A stretch of DNA of 37,992 nucleotides, from assembly GCF_017853185.1 (NCBI RefSeq), contig NZ_JAFMJZ010000012.1:1-37992 (forward strand), given 5' to 3'. The notes under the pieces were generated by a model, which had not been told where the DNA came from, made no database searches, and worked only from the letters and a program-made list of their open reading frames with translations. The DNA is from Mycolicibacterium sp. Lineage in GTDB: Bacteria > Actinomycetota > Actinomycetes > Mycobacteriales > Mycobacteriaceae. Made by a program: the position numbers and the translations under genes. Shown piece by piece: positions 26,735 through 35,184 of this stretch; position 1 is the stretch's first letter, and each line of letters starts with the position of its first letter.

Positions 26735-26765
26735 TCCCGGCCTTGACTGACCCATCCGTCGCATG

Positions 26766-26779
26766 TGACGATTTCGTCA
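26766..26779. promoter_or_regulatory. Candidate TetR operator O1: perfect inverted repeat TGACGA-TT-TCGTCA
   Basis: Direct reading; part of the 19-mer GCATGTGACGATTTCGTCA (26761-26779) also found at 29552-29570; TTGACT 23 nt upstream. Confidence 0.75.
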
Positions 26780-26801
26780 ACATCACCGGAGGTGAATGCT
26801 G

Positions 26802-27932
26802 ATGAGCGAGATCGTGGGTGCGCACAACGAGCTGCACAGCGAGCGGGGCGCGCTGCCCGGGGAGCACCCGGGCCGCGTCCGCAACCCGGCGGACAAGGTC
26901 GCCGACCTGGCCTGGCTGGAGTTCGACAAGCCGGATCTGGGCCGCGCGGAGACCTTCGCCCACGCGTTCGGATTCCAGACCGCGGCCAGGGAATCAGGCG
27001 AGATCCAGTTGCGCGGCACCGATGCCGGGGCACCGTGCGTGATCCTCCGCCGCGGAACGCAAACCCGGTTTCGCGGGTTCGCCTTCCGCGCCGCCGACGA
27101 AGCCGACCTGCTGCGCCTCGCCGACAAGACCGGGGCTCGGCCGGTCGCGCTGCCGGAGAACCTCGGCGGCCGGGCCGTGCACCTGGTCGACCCCAGTGGT
27201 AACCGGGTCAGCGTGGTGGCCGGACTGCACGAACTCCCGGCGCTGCCCGGTCAGCGATCGCACGTCTTCAACTTCGGCCAGAAAGCCCAGCGGATCAACG
27301 CAACTCAGCGCCCGCCCCGCTCCCCGGCCCGGATCCAGCGACTCGGCCACGTGGTGCTGTCCTCGACGAAATACCTCGAGAACCTCAACTGGTATCTCGA
27401 GCACTTCGGCCTGATCGTCAGCGACTTCCAGTACTACGCCGGGCAACGCGACCGCGGCCCGACCATGAGTTTCATCCGCTGCGACCGCGGCAGCACCCCG
27501 ACCGACCATCACACCCTGGCCATGGCGCTCGGTCCGGCCAACCGCTACGTGCACTCCGCCTACGAGATCAGTGATCTCGACGCCCTGGCCGCCGGCGGGG
27601 AGTACCTGCGCGAGCGCGGGTACTACCGGTCCTGGGGTATCGGGCGACATATCCAGGGCAGCCAGCTCTTCGACTACTGGCGCGACCCCGACGGCTTCAT
27701 GGTCGAGCACTACACCGACGGTGACGTGTTCGACAACACCGTCGAACCGGGGTGGGCGCCCTTCACCGCATCCGGCTTGGCACAGTGGGGCCCGCCGGCC
27801 AGCAAGGATTTCCTGGGCATTGATCCCAGGCATGCGCGCGAGGAGGTCGGCGCAATCGCCACCGCACTGCGGGAACACAACGAGTTCGACGTCAAACGGT
27901 TGATCGGATTACTGAAGGTGGCTCGCTCATGA
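26802..27932 (+). CDS. VOC-family extradiol ring-cleavage dioxygenase (catechol 2,3-dioxygenase-like)
   Basis: Two VOC modules; candidate metal ligands H (RLGHVVL), H (YVHSAYE), E (FMVEHYTDGD); RBS GGAGGTG 8 nt upstream of ATG 26802. Confidence 0.87.
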   Translation: MSEIVGAHNELHSERGALPGEHPGRVRNPADKVADLAWLEFDKPDLGRAETFAHAFGFQTAARESGEIQLRGTDAGAPCVILRRGTQTRFRGFAFRAADEADLLRLADKTGARPVALPENLGGRAVHLVDPSGNRVSVVAGLHELPALPGQRSHVFNFGQKAQRINATQRPPRSPARIQRLGHVVLSSTKYLENLNWYLEHFGLIVSDFQYYAGQRDRGPTMSFIRCDRGSTPTDHHTLAMALGPANRYVHSAYEISDLDALAAGGEYLRERGYYRSWGIGRHIQGSQLFDYWRDPDGFMVEHYTDGDVFDNTVEPGWAPFTASGLAQWGPPASKDFLGIDPRHAREEVGAIATALREHNEFDVKRLIGLLKVARS

Positions 27933-28861
27933 CGATTTCGGTGTTGCGCACGGCAGACGGATGGTGGGTGCAGACACCCGACGGTGCGGTCAAGGTCCAG
28001 ACCTCGGCTGTGACCACCGCGGAACTTCTCGCCGACCGGGCGGCGGTCAAGGCCACCGCGGGCTCTCCGGTTCCCGTCGGAACCCTGTCGCTGCTCTCCC
28101 CGGTCACCAAGCCGTGCCGCGTCATCGCCCAGATGACCAACTTCGCCTCCCACGTCAAGGACGCGGGCTTGGACCCGAAGACCATTCCGCTGACCTTCTT
28201 CCGGAAGTCCTCGGCGTCCATCAGCGGCCCGTTCGATCCGATCGTCAAGCCAACCCACGTTAAGCTGCTCGACTACGAGGTGGAGATCGGACTGGTGGTC
28301 GGTCGCGATATCGCATGCGGCACAAGAATTTCCGAGCAGGATCTCCCCGACGTCATCGCCGGCCTGGTGATCACCAACGACGTCTCGGCACGTGATGTTC
28401 AGCTGCCGCAGACCCAGTTCTACGAGGCCAAGTCCTATCCGAGTTTCACCCCGGCCGGTCCGGCGCTGGTCCTGCTCGACGCCGGCGAACTCAAGCATTT
28501 CGGGCAGTTGCGGCTCCGGTTGAGTGTCAACGGCGACACGCGGCAGAACGCACTGGTCGACGGCGACATGATGTACAAGCCACTGCAGGCGCTTCAGTCG
28601 CTGACCAGGTTCCAGGATCTGTCCGCCGGCGACCTGATCCTGACCGGCACTCCGGTCGGGACCGCACTCAGCGCACCCCCCAAGCCCGTCGAGATGATCT
28701 CGCGACTGCTGCCGCCCGCGGTGAAGTGGAAGGCGTTCTTCAAGAGCCAGGCCGCCAATCCGAAGTACCTGAAGGACGGCGATGTGGTGGAGGCGTCGGT
28801 GCGGACCGACGACGGCGCGATCGACCTCGGCACCCAACGGATGACCGTCAAGTACGCCTAG
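27929..28861 (+). CDS. Fumarylacetoacetate hydrolase (FAH)-family protein
   Basis: LLDYEVEIGLVVGRDI, VITNDVSARDVQ, KSYPSFTPAGPAL, AGDLILTGTPVGT; ATGA overlap with dioxygenase gene. Confidence 0.93.
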   Translation: MTISVLRTADGWWVQTPDGAVKVQTSAVTTAELLADRAAVKATAGSPVPVGTLSLLSPVTKPCRVIAQMTNFASHVKDAGLDPKTIPLTFFRKSSASISGPFDPIVKPTHVKLLDYEVEIGLVVGRDIACGTRISEQDLPDVIAGLVITNDVSARDVQLPQTQFYEAKSYPSFTPAGPALVLLDAGELKHFGQLRLRLSVNGDTRQNALVDGDMMYKPLQALQSLTRFQDLSAGDLILTGTPVGTALSAPPKPVEMISRLLPPAVKWKAFFKSQAANPKYLKDGDVVEASVRTDDGAIDLGTQRMTVKYA

Positions 28862-29493
28862 AGAGTCGCCTCCGGCAGGGGCCGCGAGCACACTTTATGC
28901 GCCTGGGCGGCCGACATCCCGAACATCCGGAGCAGATCCTCGGTGACGGCGTCGGCGGTTGCCCCGTCGTCACGGGTGGTGTCGCGTTGCAACAGAGTGC
29001 CAAGACCGAGCAGGATCCCGCTCGCGACAGCCAGCGCAAGCTCCGGATCATCGACGGTGAACCGGCCCGCCGCGACCGCCGCTTTGATGTCACGCAACGC
29101 ACGTGGCGCCAGTCCGCGGTCCGAGGTGATCAGCCTCGGCCAGTTGGCCATCAGGATGAGGCTCTCCAGCGGACGCCGCCGGAAGAAGCGGCCGGTCAGC
29201 CGGAAGCTGGCGGCGAAGGTCTCGGCCGGATCATCCATACCGATCGTCAGAGAGTCCAGCACTGCGCCGTAGGAATCCAGGACATCGGCGACAGCGGCTT
29301 CGAAAAGCTCTTCCTTGCTGTCGAAGTGGTTGTAGAACGAGCCCATCCCGACATCGGCGAGTTGGGTGATCTCCAGAACCGGGACGTTGAGCCTGCCCTC
29401 CACGATCAACTGCTGGGCGGCCTTGATCAGCGCCGAGCGCGTCCGTTGCTTGCGGCGCTCCAGCCGGTTGACCGGTTCTTCGGCCTCTCCCAC
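28858..29493 (-). CDS. TetR-family transcriptional regulator
   Basis: RTRSALIKAAQQLIVEGRLNVPVLEITQLADVGMGSFYNHFDSKEELFEAAVADVL HTH; GTG start at 29493 (VGEAEEPVNRLERRKQRT); ORF-track start at 29730 overlaps the divergent gene. Confidence 0.9.
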   Translation of the reverse strand: MGEAEEPVNRLERRKQRTRSALIKAAQQLIVEGRLNVPVLEITQLADVGMGSFYNHFDSKEELFEAAVADVLDSYGAVLDSLTIGMDDPAETFAASFRLTGRFFRRRPLESLILMANWPRLITSDRGLAPRALRDIKAAVAAGRFTVDDPELALAVASGILLGLGTLLQRDTTRDDGATADAVTEDLLRMFGMSAAQAHKVCSRPLPEATL

Positions 29494-29510
29494 AGGACGG
29501 ACTCTATCAG

Positions 29511-29530
29511 TTCTGATGATTTCATCAGAA
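29511..29530. promoter_or_regulatory. Candidate TetR operator O2: perfect inverted repeat TTCTGATGA-TT-TCATCAGAA
   Basis: Direct reading; 9-bp arms, 2-bp spacer, 18 bp upstream of the TetR GTG start; core TGATGATTTCATCA matches O1/O3 at 12 of 14 positions. Confidence 0.8.
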
Positions 29531-29556
29531 CCCCTTGACGGCCGACCGGGAGCATG

Positions 29557-29570
29557 TGACGATTTCGTCA
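29557..29570. promoter_or_regulatory. Candidate TetR operator O3: perfect inverted repeat TGACGA-TT-TCGTCA
   Basis: Direct reading; identical to O1; TTGACG 22 nt upstream; RBS AAGGAG and GTG start follow. Confidence 0.75.
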
Positions 29571-29586: not shown

Positions 29587-31089
29587 GTGAACCAAGCGCA
29601 GTCGACCGTGGTCATCGTCGGCGCCGGCCCGACCGGTGTCACCACCGCCACCCTGCTCGCCCAGTACGGCGTCGCCACCACGGTTCTGGACCGCTGGGCC
29701 GACGTGTATCCGCAGCCACGGGCCGTTCACCTCGATGACGAGGTCTACCGGATTCTCGATCGAGTCGGCGTCGGTGAACAGTTCGCCGCGGTATCACGGC
29801 CCGCGCTCGGGCTTCGCCTGATCGACCCGAAGATGCGGGTGCTCGCCGAGTTCCACCGCGACCCGGACCAGGACCGCAACGGGCATCCATCGGCGAACAT
29901 GTTCGACCAGCCCGTCCTCGAAGGACTGCTGCGGTCCAACATCACCCGCTATCCGGAGATCACCCTGCGCGGCAGCGTCGAGGTGACCGACATCGCGGCG
30001 CTTGAGGGCGGACGGACCCGGGTCACCTTCACCGATCGTGACGACGGCACCGAGCACTGCATCGAGGCCGACTATCTGCTCGGCTGTGACGGCGCAAACA
30101 GCCTGGTGCGCAACCGGATCGGTGCAGCGATGGAGGATCTCCGATTCGAACAACGGTGGCTGGTGATCGACGTCGCCAGCGATGAGGAGCTGCAGCAGTG
30201 GGACGGCGTGCACCAGTTGTGCGACTCACGCCGGGCCGGCACGTTCATGCGCATCGGCCCCAACCGCTACCGGTGGGAGTTTCGGCTGCTCGACGGCGAG
30301 AAGGCCGAGGACTTCCGCGCGATGGGCACCCTTGGACCCCTGATCGCGCCGTGGACAGAGCGGGTCGATGCAGGCCGCCTGGAGATCATCCGGGTCGCCG
30401 AGTACACCTTCCGCGCGAAGATCGCCGACCACTGGCGTCGCGGCAACACCTTCCTGCTCGGCGATGCAGCGCACCTGACTCCGCCGTTCGTCGGCCAGGG
30501 TCTTTGCGCGGGATTGCGGGACGCGATGAACCTGGCCTGGAAACTCGCCGGCGTCGTGAACGGAACACTGGATCCGGCGGTGCTGGACACCTATGAGCAG
30601 GAACGGAAACCACACGCACGCAGCATGATCGACCTGGCGCTGATGGTGGGCCGGGCGATGACCTCCGGAGGCAGAGCAGGTGACCTGCTGCGCGGGATCG
30701 TGGTGCCCCGGTTGCAGCTGCTGCCGGGATTGCGGAAGAAAGTGCTGGACTCCGAGACTCCCGCACTGTCTCGTGGCCCCCTGGTTCAGGGGCCCAGCAG
30801 GCTCGCAGGAAAGCTCTGCCCGAACCCGCGGACGCAGGACGGCCGGCGTCTCGACGCGGTACTCGGAGACGGCTGGGCGGTGATCAGCATCGAATCGTTG
30901 CCTTCCTCCGCTGCGGAACTGGCCGCGCAGCGTGGCGCCGCCATCCATGTCACGGACCCGGACAGCGAAATCGGTGAGTGGTTGAGCAAGGGCCGGGCCG
31001 CCGCCGCAATCCTGCGGCCGGACCGGACGGTGATGCTGGCCGGAACGGATGTATCCCGGTTGTGTGCGGCACTACCCGCGTTGCGCTGA
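29587..31089 (+). CDS. FAD-dependent aromatic hydroxylase (MhpA-like, PheA/TfdB-type)
   Basis: VVIVGAGPTGVTTATLL (GxGxxG), YLLGCDGANSLVR (DG motif), TFLLGDAAHLTPPFVGQGLCAGLRDAMNLAWKL (GD motif). Confidence 0.92.
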   Translation: MNQAQSTVVIVGAGPTGVTTATLLAQYGVATTVLDRWADVYPQPRAVHLDDEVYRILDRVGVGEQFAAVSRPALGLRLIDPKMRVLAEFHRDPDQDRNGHPSANMFDQPVLEGLLRSNITRYPEITLRGSVEVTDIAALEGGRTRVTFTDRDDGTEHCIEADYLLGCDGANSLVRNRIGAAMEDLRFEQRWLVIDVASDEELQQWDGVHQLCDSRRAGTFMRIGPNRYRWEFRLLDGEKAEDFRAMGTLGPLIAPWTERVDAGRLEIIRVAEYTFRAKIADHWRRGNTFLLGDAAHLTPPFVGQGLCAGLRDAMNLAWKLAGVVNGTLDPAVLDTYEQERKPHARSMIDLALMVGRAMTSGGRAGDLLRGIVVPRLQLLPGLRKKVLDSETPALSRGPLVQGPSRLAGKLCPNPRTQDGRRLDAVLGDGWAVISIESLPSSAAELAAQRGAAIHVTDPDSEIGEWLSKGRAAAAILRPDRTVMLAGTDVSRLCAALPALR

Positions 31090-34508: not shown

Positions 34509-34548
34509 TCTGTAGTGATCCCTACGGTAATAGAACGATCACTACAGA
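34509..34548. promoter_or_regulatory. Inverted repeat TCTGTAGTGATC-16 nt-GATCACTACAGA, candidate operator of the divergent TetR
   Basis: Direct reading; perfect 12-bp arms 34509-34520 and 34537-34548, in the 72-bp divergent gap. Confidence 0.8.
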
Positions 34549-34560
34549 AGCAAGGGTCAA

Positions 34561-35184
34561 ATGGCGGAGAAGCCCAAGAAGCGCCGTGCGGACGGTGAGC
34601 TTTCCCGAACCCGCATCCTTGATGCGGCCACCGAGATCGCCGCCGAGCGTGGCTACGAGGGCACCAGCATCGGCGCGGTAAGCGCCAAGTGCGGCCTGCC
34701 GGCCAGCTCGATCTACTGGCACTTCACCGATAAGGACGACCTGATGGCGGCCGTCATCGAACGAAGCTTCGGCACCTGGCTGGACGTCTGGCAGCTTCCC
34801 GCCGAGGGCTCACCACAGGAACGCCTCATCGCGATCTCCATCCGGTGCGCCCAGGCCTTCGCAGAATCACCCGACTTCATCCGGCTCGGACTGATGCTCA
34901 CTCTGGAGCGCCGGCCGGTGGAACCTCGGGCCCGTGCGATGTTCCTTCAGGTGCGCGAACGGGCGTTCACAATGCTCGTCGGCAGCGTCCGCGAGTTGGC
35001 GCCCGAGCTGACCGAAGCCCAGGCCCAACAGCTCGCCGGCTACGCGATGGCCGGAGCCGACGGACTCTTCATCGCCAAGGAGATCGGCGGTGACAGCGTC
35101 GATCTGCTGGCCCTGTTCGAGACCCACGGCCGGTCGCTGTGGGCGACTGCGGAGCGGATGATCGCCGATAGCCGAACGGGGTGA
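34561..35184 (+). CDS. TetR-family transcriptional regulator
   Basis: RTRILDAATEIAAERGYEGTSIGAVSAKCGLPASSIYWHFTDKDDLMAAVIERSF. Confidence 0.95.
   Translation: MAEKPKKRRADGELSRTRILDAATEIAAERGYEGTSIGAVSAKCGLPASSIYWHFTDKDDLMAAVIERSFGTWLDVWQLPAEGSPQERLIAISIRCAQAFAESPDFIRLGLMLTLERRPVEPRARAMFLQVRERAFTMLVGSVRELAPELTEAQAQQLAGYAMAGADGLFIAKEIGGDSVDLLALFETHGRSLWATAERMIADSRTG

Follow-up and report, generated by a model that had tools for sequence, protein, structure and literature searches.

A RolR-like TetR regulator and its predicted operators at an aromatic-degradation locus of Mycolicibacterium

Introduction

The stretch of Mycolicibacterium DNA analysed here (37,992 nucleotides, hereafter the window) carries a tetR gene. 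Genes for a dioxygenase and a fumarylacetoacetate hydrolase-family enzyme (FAH) adjoin it on one side, and on the other lies the gene for an MhpA-like FAD hydroxylase. Three related dyads, O1, O2 and O3, lie in front of these genes, which raises the question of whether the regulator acts through them and, if so, how. A first-pass annotation had proposed an autoregulated TetR regulon with two flanking transcripts. This proposal is largely supported by the conservation of the dyads upstream of orthologous genes, by the non-random distribution of the motif, and by the covariation of recognition helix and operator. From these comparisons, we consider it very probable that the locus is a local autoregulated repressor switch, in which a RolR-like TetR protein acting on O1, O2 and O3 controls its own gene and two aromatic gene sets.

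Results

Genes and putative operator sites of the locus

The extradiol-type ring-cleavage dioxygenase (26802-27932, plus strand, 376 aa, PF00903) has an ATG start at 26802 or 26796, and it also matches HpaD/BphC-type NCBIfam models weakly, below their cut-off. The FAH gene (27929-28861, plus strand, 310 aa; PF01557, E 2.4e-45) shares its first 4 nt with the end of the dioxygenase gene. The RolR-like TetR-family regulator (212 aa; PF00440, PF21306, and RolR 3aqs with E 9.5e-32) is encoded on the minus strand at 28858-29496. The convergent ends of FAH and tetR overlap by 4 nt (28858-28861), and a generic terminator scan of the window found nothing, including none between these two genes. The FAD-dependent aromatic hydroxylase (29587-31089, plus strand, 500 aa, GTG start; PF01494, E 2.5e-64) scores 612.9 bits against the NF004829 subfamily model, for which the cut-off is 390. 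Further along the window, a perfect 12-bp inverted repeat, TCTGTAGTGATC-N16-GATCACTACAGA (34509-34548), unrelated to O1-O3, sits between a second TetR gene (34561-35184) and a second FAD hydroxylase gene; it probably acts as operator for a regulon of its own.

A direct check of the sequence located the 19-mer GCATGTGACGATTTCGTCA on the plus strand at both positions given by the first-pass annotation, 26761-26779, where it includes operator O1 (26766-26779), and 29552-29570, where it includes operator O3 (29557-29570). All three dyads match the core pattern TGAYGATTTCRTCA at the places claimed for them. The third, O2, lies in front of tetR and was described as TTCTGATGA-TT-TCATCAGAA at 29511-29530; this sequence is present, but its extent was understated, as the arms are 10 nt long and remain perfect with one base more on each side, giving GTTCTGATGA-TT-TCATCAGAAC at 29510-29531 (no strand assigned). 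The term perfect palindrome is slightly too strong for these sites, because perfection is limited to the arms: the two central base pairs have TT on one strand and AA on the other and so lack self-complementarity. The distance between O2 and O3 is 43 bp, as claimed.

A scan of the window with the core pattern, allowing up to two mismatches, gave seven matches, corresponding to the three sites on both strands and one weak site, whereas 0.48 were expected in shuffled sequences and no shuffle reached seven. The exact pattern occurs three times in the host assembly, each time at this locus, so that its genome-wide distribution is non-random, and the reversed control pattern has zero exact matches in the same 3.58 Mb draft. 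As this assembly (287 contigs) is 91% complete, further operator sites may be missing from the count. The window shuffles, the host-genome count and the conservation in 80 loci described below led us to reject a chance origin of the dyads.

Conservation of gene order and operators

We compared 149 relatives; within the genus, many of them carry an evident tetR ortholog or a close paralog, with 55-83% identity. In the majority gene order, tetR is divergent from dioxygenase-FAH-hydroxylase. The window belongs to a minority in which dioxygenase-FAH is followed by tetR on the opposite strand and then by the hydroxylase gene. A scan of named genomes yielded 80 loci, mainly from Mycobacterium and Mycolicibacterium with some from Amycolatopsis and Antrihabitans, where the tetR orthologs are 62-90% identical and the neighbour of tetR is the dioxygenase gene in 53 cases and the hydroxylase gene in 22.

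Alignment of orthologous intergenic regions had been suggested as a check on the dyads. A dyad was found upstream of tetR in 79 of the 80 named loci and two dyads in 59, whereas the remaining sequence of these loci, scanned in the same way, leads one to expect 0.008 dyads per upstream region. The two dyads are 43-44 bp apart in 53 of the 59 loci, and TTGAC stands 23 bp before the dyad on the structural-gene side in 59 of the 67 orthologous promoters that have a TTGAC. The conserved loci share descent, so these counts represent non-independent events; flanking positions vary, and the dyad hardly does. Across 57 aligned promoters, the O3-type consensus is cTTGACtGa...tcGTATGTGACGATTTCGTCAGt, with core positions invariant or nearly so, and the O2-type consensus is TCAnTnnTGAgGATTTCGTCAgaa. 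The orientation of the TT centre is preserved also at O2 (47/57 and 53/57; L152-L231), where there is no -10 element to explain it. O1 is exact in all 17 loci of the window's gene order in which that DNA is present, two more loci ending inside the dioxygenase gene. The exact motif occurs in 127 of 199 genomes of the genus, and the reversed control pattern has a single match among those listed. This conservation across the genus argues that the switch is real.

Where the genes are separated, the sites are distributed accordingly: an O2-type site is all that four stand-alone tetR loci (L034, L037, L067, L094) retain, and an O3-type site is kept by structural genes located apart from tetR, which is the split expected between autoregulation and target control. 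In six loci with the window's gene order (L076, L081, L169, L171, L180, L197), O1 and the O2-type site are kept and O3 is lost; in L076 and L081, the hydroxylase gene starts directly after O2. One locus (L105, in G076, a 3.27 Mb single contig) is a decayed copy, with a stop in the tetR match and fragmented dioxygenase and FAH matches.

Pairing of regulator and operator

The recognition helix of the regulator is DVGMGSFYNHF. In a paralogous clade, LEIT...DVGMGSFYNHF is replaced by QDIS...DVGVGSFYNHF, and the sites of this clade are TGAAGATWTCTTCA. Loci with the M-type helix have 48 sites of the TGA[C/T/G]GA class and none of the TGAAGA..TCTTCA class (A-class), whereas loci with the V-type helix have none of the former and three of the latter (Fisher p 4.8e-5, treating as independent loci that are related). 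Both operator arms change together in the paralogs (TGAAGATATCTTCA), so that symmetry is preserved. A changed recognition helix accompanied by a changed operator ties the regulator to the site; together with the conserved dyads, this covariation strongly, if indirectly, supports the predicted binding. Nevertheless, the association may reflect a single evolutionary event, as it comes from one paralogous clade with only three V-type loci having clean sites. The variable Met/Val residue (Met51) occupies what we take, as a lead, to be the position of Gln38 in the TetR recognition helix.

These observations also bear on whether another regulator, such as the second TetR of the window, binds the dyads. 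That protein shares the aromatic-degradation window with the RolR-like TetR, but the dyads accompany the RolR-like gene in nearly all of the named loci, and of the 72 loci examined, just three (L066, L069 and L070) have the second TetR in the vicinity. Its own promoter carries the unrelated TCTGTAGTGATC-N16-GATCACTACAGA repeat, and the operator changes track the recognition helix of the RolR-like protein. Binding by another regulator is thus very improbable, and the RolR-like protein is the preferred candidate for binding the dyads.

Probable promoter elements and proposed mode of repression

The first-pass annotation placed a TTGAC 22-23 nt upstream in both structural-gene promoters, and this holds: the one at 26743-26747 stands 23 bp before O1, and the one at 29535-29539 stands 22 bp before O3. 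We assign the -35 element of the dioxygenase-FAH promoter to TTGACT (26743-26748, plus strand), based on its sequence, on the TTGAC-dyad spacing in orthologous promoters and on the consensus cTTGACtGa, and that of the hydroxylase promoter to TTGACG (29535-29540, plus strand), based on its sequence and the conserved spacing. The probable -10 elements are GACGAT at 26767-26772, within the O1 19-mer, and GACGAT at 29558-29563, within the O3 19-mer; these assignments rely on the spacers, of 18 bp for dioxygenase-FAH and 17 bp for the hydroxylase, and on the xANNNT form. No promoter reached the threshold of a generic sigma-70 scan, which is uninformative for a mycobacterial promoter whose -10 is GACGAT. 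Since the downstream dyad begins 22-23 bp after the conserved TTGAC, it would cover the -10 region, and the fixed distance in relatives (usually 23 bp) supports the first-pass annotation on this point.

The coincidence of O1 and O3 with a probable -10 element, together with the single orientation in which the TT centre is kept, could mean that the conserved sequence is chiefly a promoter element and that its dyad symmetry is incidental. We give this explanation very little credence: O2 is the same dyad but lies upstream of the -35 element, where it has no part in a structural-gene -10, the arms of the paralog operators change jointly with symmetry kept (TGAAGATATCTTCA), and the dyad is retained at stand-alone tetR genes.

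On the tetR side, O2 is conserved before the gene. In 36 of the 57 relatives with aligned promoters, a TANNNT is found 16-18 bp away from O2 on the side of tetR; with this spacing, O2 would fall on the -35 element of tetR in those relatives. In the window, there is no TANNNT at 16-18 bp from O2 toward tetR, the nearest one being 7 bp away, so the tetR-side promoter is poorly placed.

Instead of covering the -10 element, the RolR-like TetR bound at the dyads could repress by a roadblock or by a DNA loop joining O1 to O2/O3. In PMC9210681, the operator of RolR, the closest characterised relative, is described as a single 29-bp site, rolO, that contains two repeats and from which RolR reportedly works as a roadblock (+66 to +94). 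In addition, O1 sits 2.75 kb from O2/O3 in the gene order of the window. However, the TTGAC-to-dyad spacing of 22-23 bp is fixed genus-wide and places the dyad on the probable -10 element, and the majority gene order has the O2-O3 pair only, so that a distant site is not needed. We therefore consider these modes unlikely and retain direct cover of the -10 element.

Relationship to RolR and predicted inducer

The first-pass annotation correctly assigned the protein to the TetR family but missed its relationship to RolR. An N-terminal helix-turn-helix (PF00440, E 4.9e-08) and a C domain (PF21306, E 8.5e-25) are recognised, and the AlphaFold model (pLDDT 89.5) is all helical, with TetR proteins as its best PDB fold matches. 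The nearest solved relative is RolR of Corynebacterium glutamicum, with 72 of 199 aligned residues identical (36%). In a PDB sequence search, 3aqs matched over residues 6-210 (E 9.5e-32), the next match having an E-value of 3e-07, and 3aqt/3aqs ranked first in a fold search with the AlphaFold model.

In RolR, resorcinol is bound by four polar residues, Asp94-Arg145-Arg148-Asp149 (PMC3086911). The equivalent residues D81, R132, R135 and D136 are present in the regulator and invariant in 66-67 of 67 aligned homologues. The closest full-length homology and this effector quartet place the regulator, as judged from sequence and model, in the RolR group. The rest of the pocket is partly altered: F107 and L142 of RolR are kept and L111 is conservatively replaced by F, while L114 corresponds to T101 and F172 to S159, a position where G or A is common among homologues. 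As the hydrophobic pocket is not preserved at these last two positions, we do not claim that the protein is a resorcinol regulator. In addition, the single rolO-type downstream roadblock operator expected of a RolR ortholog was not found at the locus, which has separate dyads on the probable -10 element and upstream of the -35 element. Because L114 and F172 are replaced by T and S/G/A, the effector pocket is probably larger or more open than that of RolR. Given the conserved quartet and this more open pocket, the predicted inducer is a phenolic compound, a phenol with a side chain being the natural guess. The RolR structure paper had predicted that homologues bearing the quartet sense resorcinol-like compounds (PMC3086911).

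Further sites in sister genomes

In sister genomes, the operator also stands, in its TTGAC context, before unlinked genes for CYP199-like P450s and before additional copies of dioxygenase-FAH. Sites before CYP199-like P450 genes, whether linked to tetR or not, are found in L106, L116, L117, L120, L121 and at L099:4417. Ten of 30 P450 loci have an operator site of their own. Among the remaining 20, several are located on one contig with the tetR/dioxygenase genes and within a few kb of them, which suggests that they belong to the same operon. The genome of the window has no close P450 of the CYP199-like kind (best 30%). At L110:4001, a full TTGACTGA-dyad promoter, judged by eye, precedes a gene for a 658-aa acyl-CoA synthetase-like protein, a possible further member of the regulon. 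Of 20 extra motif sites inspected in sister genomes, roughly half look like chance occurrences, those lacking a promoter-like context being L107, L109, L111-L115, L118, L122 and L123.

Discussion

The sites, their conservation and fixed spacing, their gene association and the joint change of helix and operator were all computed; from these, we propose the following mechanism, in which the sign of the control, repression, is inferred. Without inducer, dimers of the RolR-like TetR (28858-29496) would occupy O1, O2 and O3. At O1 and O3, a dimer would cover the -10 element of a TTGAC-17/18-GACGAT promoter, so that RNA polymerase could not open the dioxygenase-FAH or hydroxylase promoter. A dimer at O2, which precedes tetR and lies immediately upstream of the O3 promoter, would repress tetR itself, and the dimers at O2 and O3, about four helical turns apart, may assist each other. 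The inducer would be a phenol from the pathway, either a substrate or an intermediate, that enters the RolR-type pocket and contacts the D81/R132/R135/D136 network. This contact would release TetR and turn on the ring-hydroxylation and ring-cleavage genes.

A bolder reading, which we offer tentatively and hold to be somewhat doubtful, treats O2-O3 as one cooperative unit, in which two RolR-type dimers, separated by about four turns of the helix, would sit on either side of the -35 element and keep a bidirectional promoter locked. It adds a specificity rule, by which Met or Val at the TetR Gln38 position would select C/T/G or A at operator position 4, as contrasted in TGACGATTTCGTCA vs TGAAGATATCTTCA. 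The whole would then constitute a widespread, undescribed aromatic-sensing switch of mycobacteria.

For a regulator present in many mycobacteria and in Amycolatopsis and Antrihabitans, the analysis provides a defined operator, a list of targets and a prediction of the type of inducer. A motif search can now read the regulon in any genome, unlinked CYP199-like P450 genes included, and the paralog pairs constitute a natural test of base choice by TetR recognition helices. The outcome is a solid annotation rather than a surprise.

None of the papers searched contains the exact 14-mer operator, and literature searches for the operator sequence otherwise returned unrelated matches. Among mycobacterial TetR repressors, KstR and KstR2 govern larger sets of genes, bind other operators and respond to CoA-thioesters derived from steroids. 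Nevertheless, the present system resembles them as a predicted TetR repressor with conserved palindromes at degradation genes, and their motifs were also defined through conservation of intergenic regions (PMC4482099; see also PMC1995591). In its available part, the mycobacterial TetR survey (PMC4482099) makes no mention of RolR or resorcinol. As in QacR of Staphylococcus aureus and other multi-dimer TetR repressors, more than one dimer is predicted near one promoter; QacR, however, binds one 28-bp site according to PMC9210681, whereas the present dyads are separate and 43-44 bp apart.

With RolR/rolO (PDB 3aqs, 3aqt), the regulator has in common the TetR family, a glycine-rich recognition helix and the effector quartet, as well as the control, predicted here, of an aromatic-degradation gene set and of its own gene. 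The rolO repeat TGAAC-N4-GTTCA, as given in PMC9210681, shares the TGA-N8-TCA frame with the present dyads. In contrast to rolO, two or three separate dyads of 14-22 bp lie on promoter elements. The targets also differ, being extradiol dioxygenase-FAH and an MhpA-like hydroxylase here and rolHMD in C. glutamicum. The switch is best described as a further example of known TetR-type regulation, with an operator layout unlike that of rolO.
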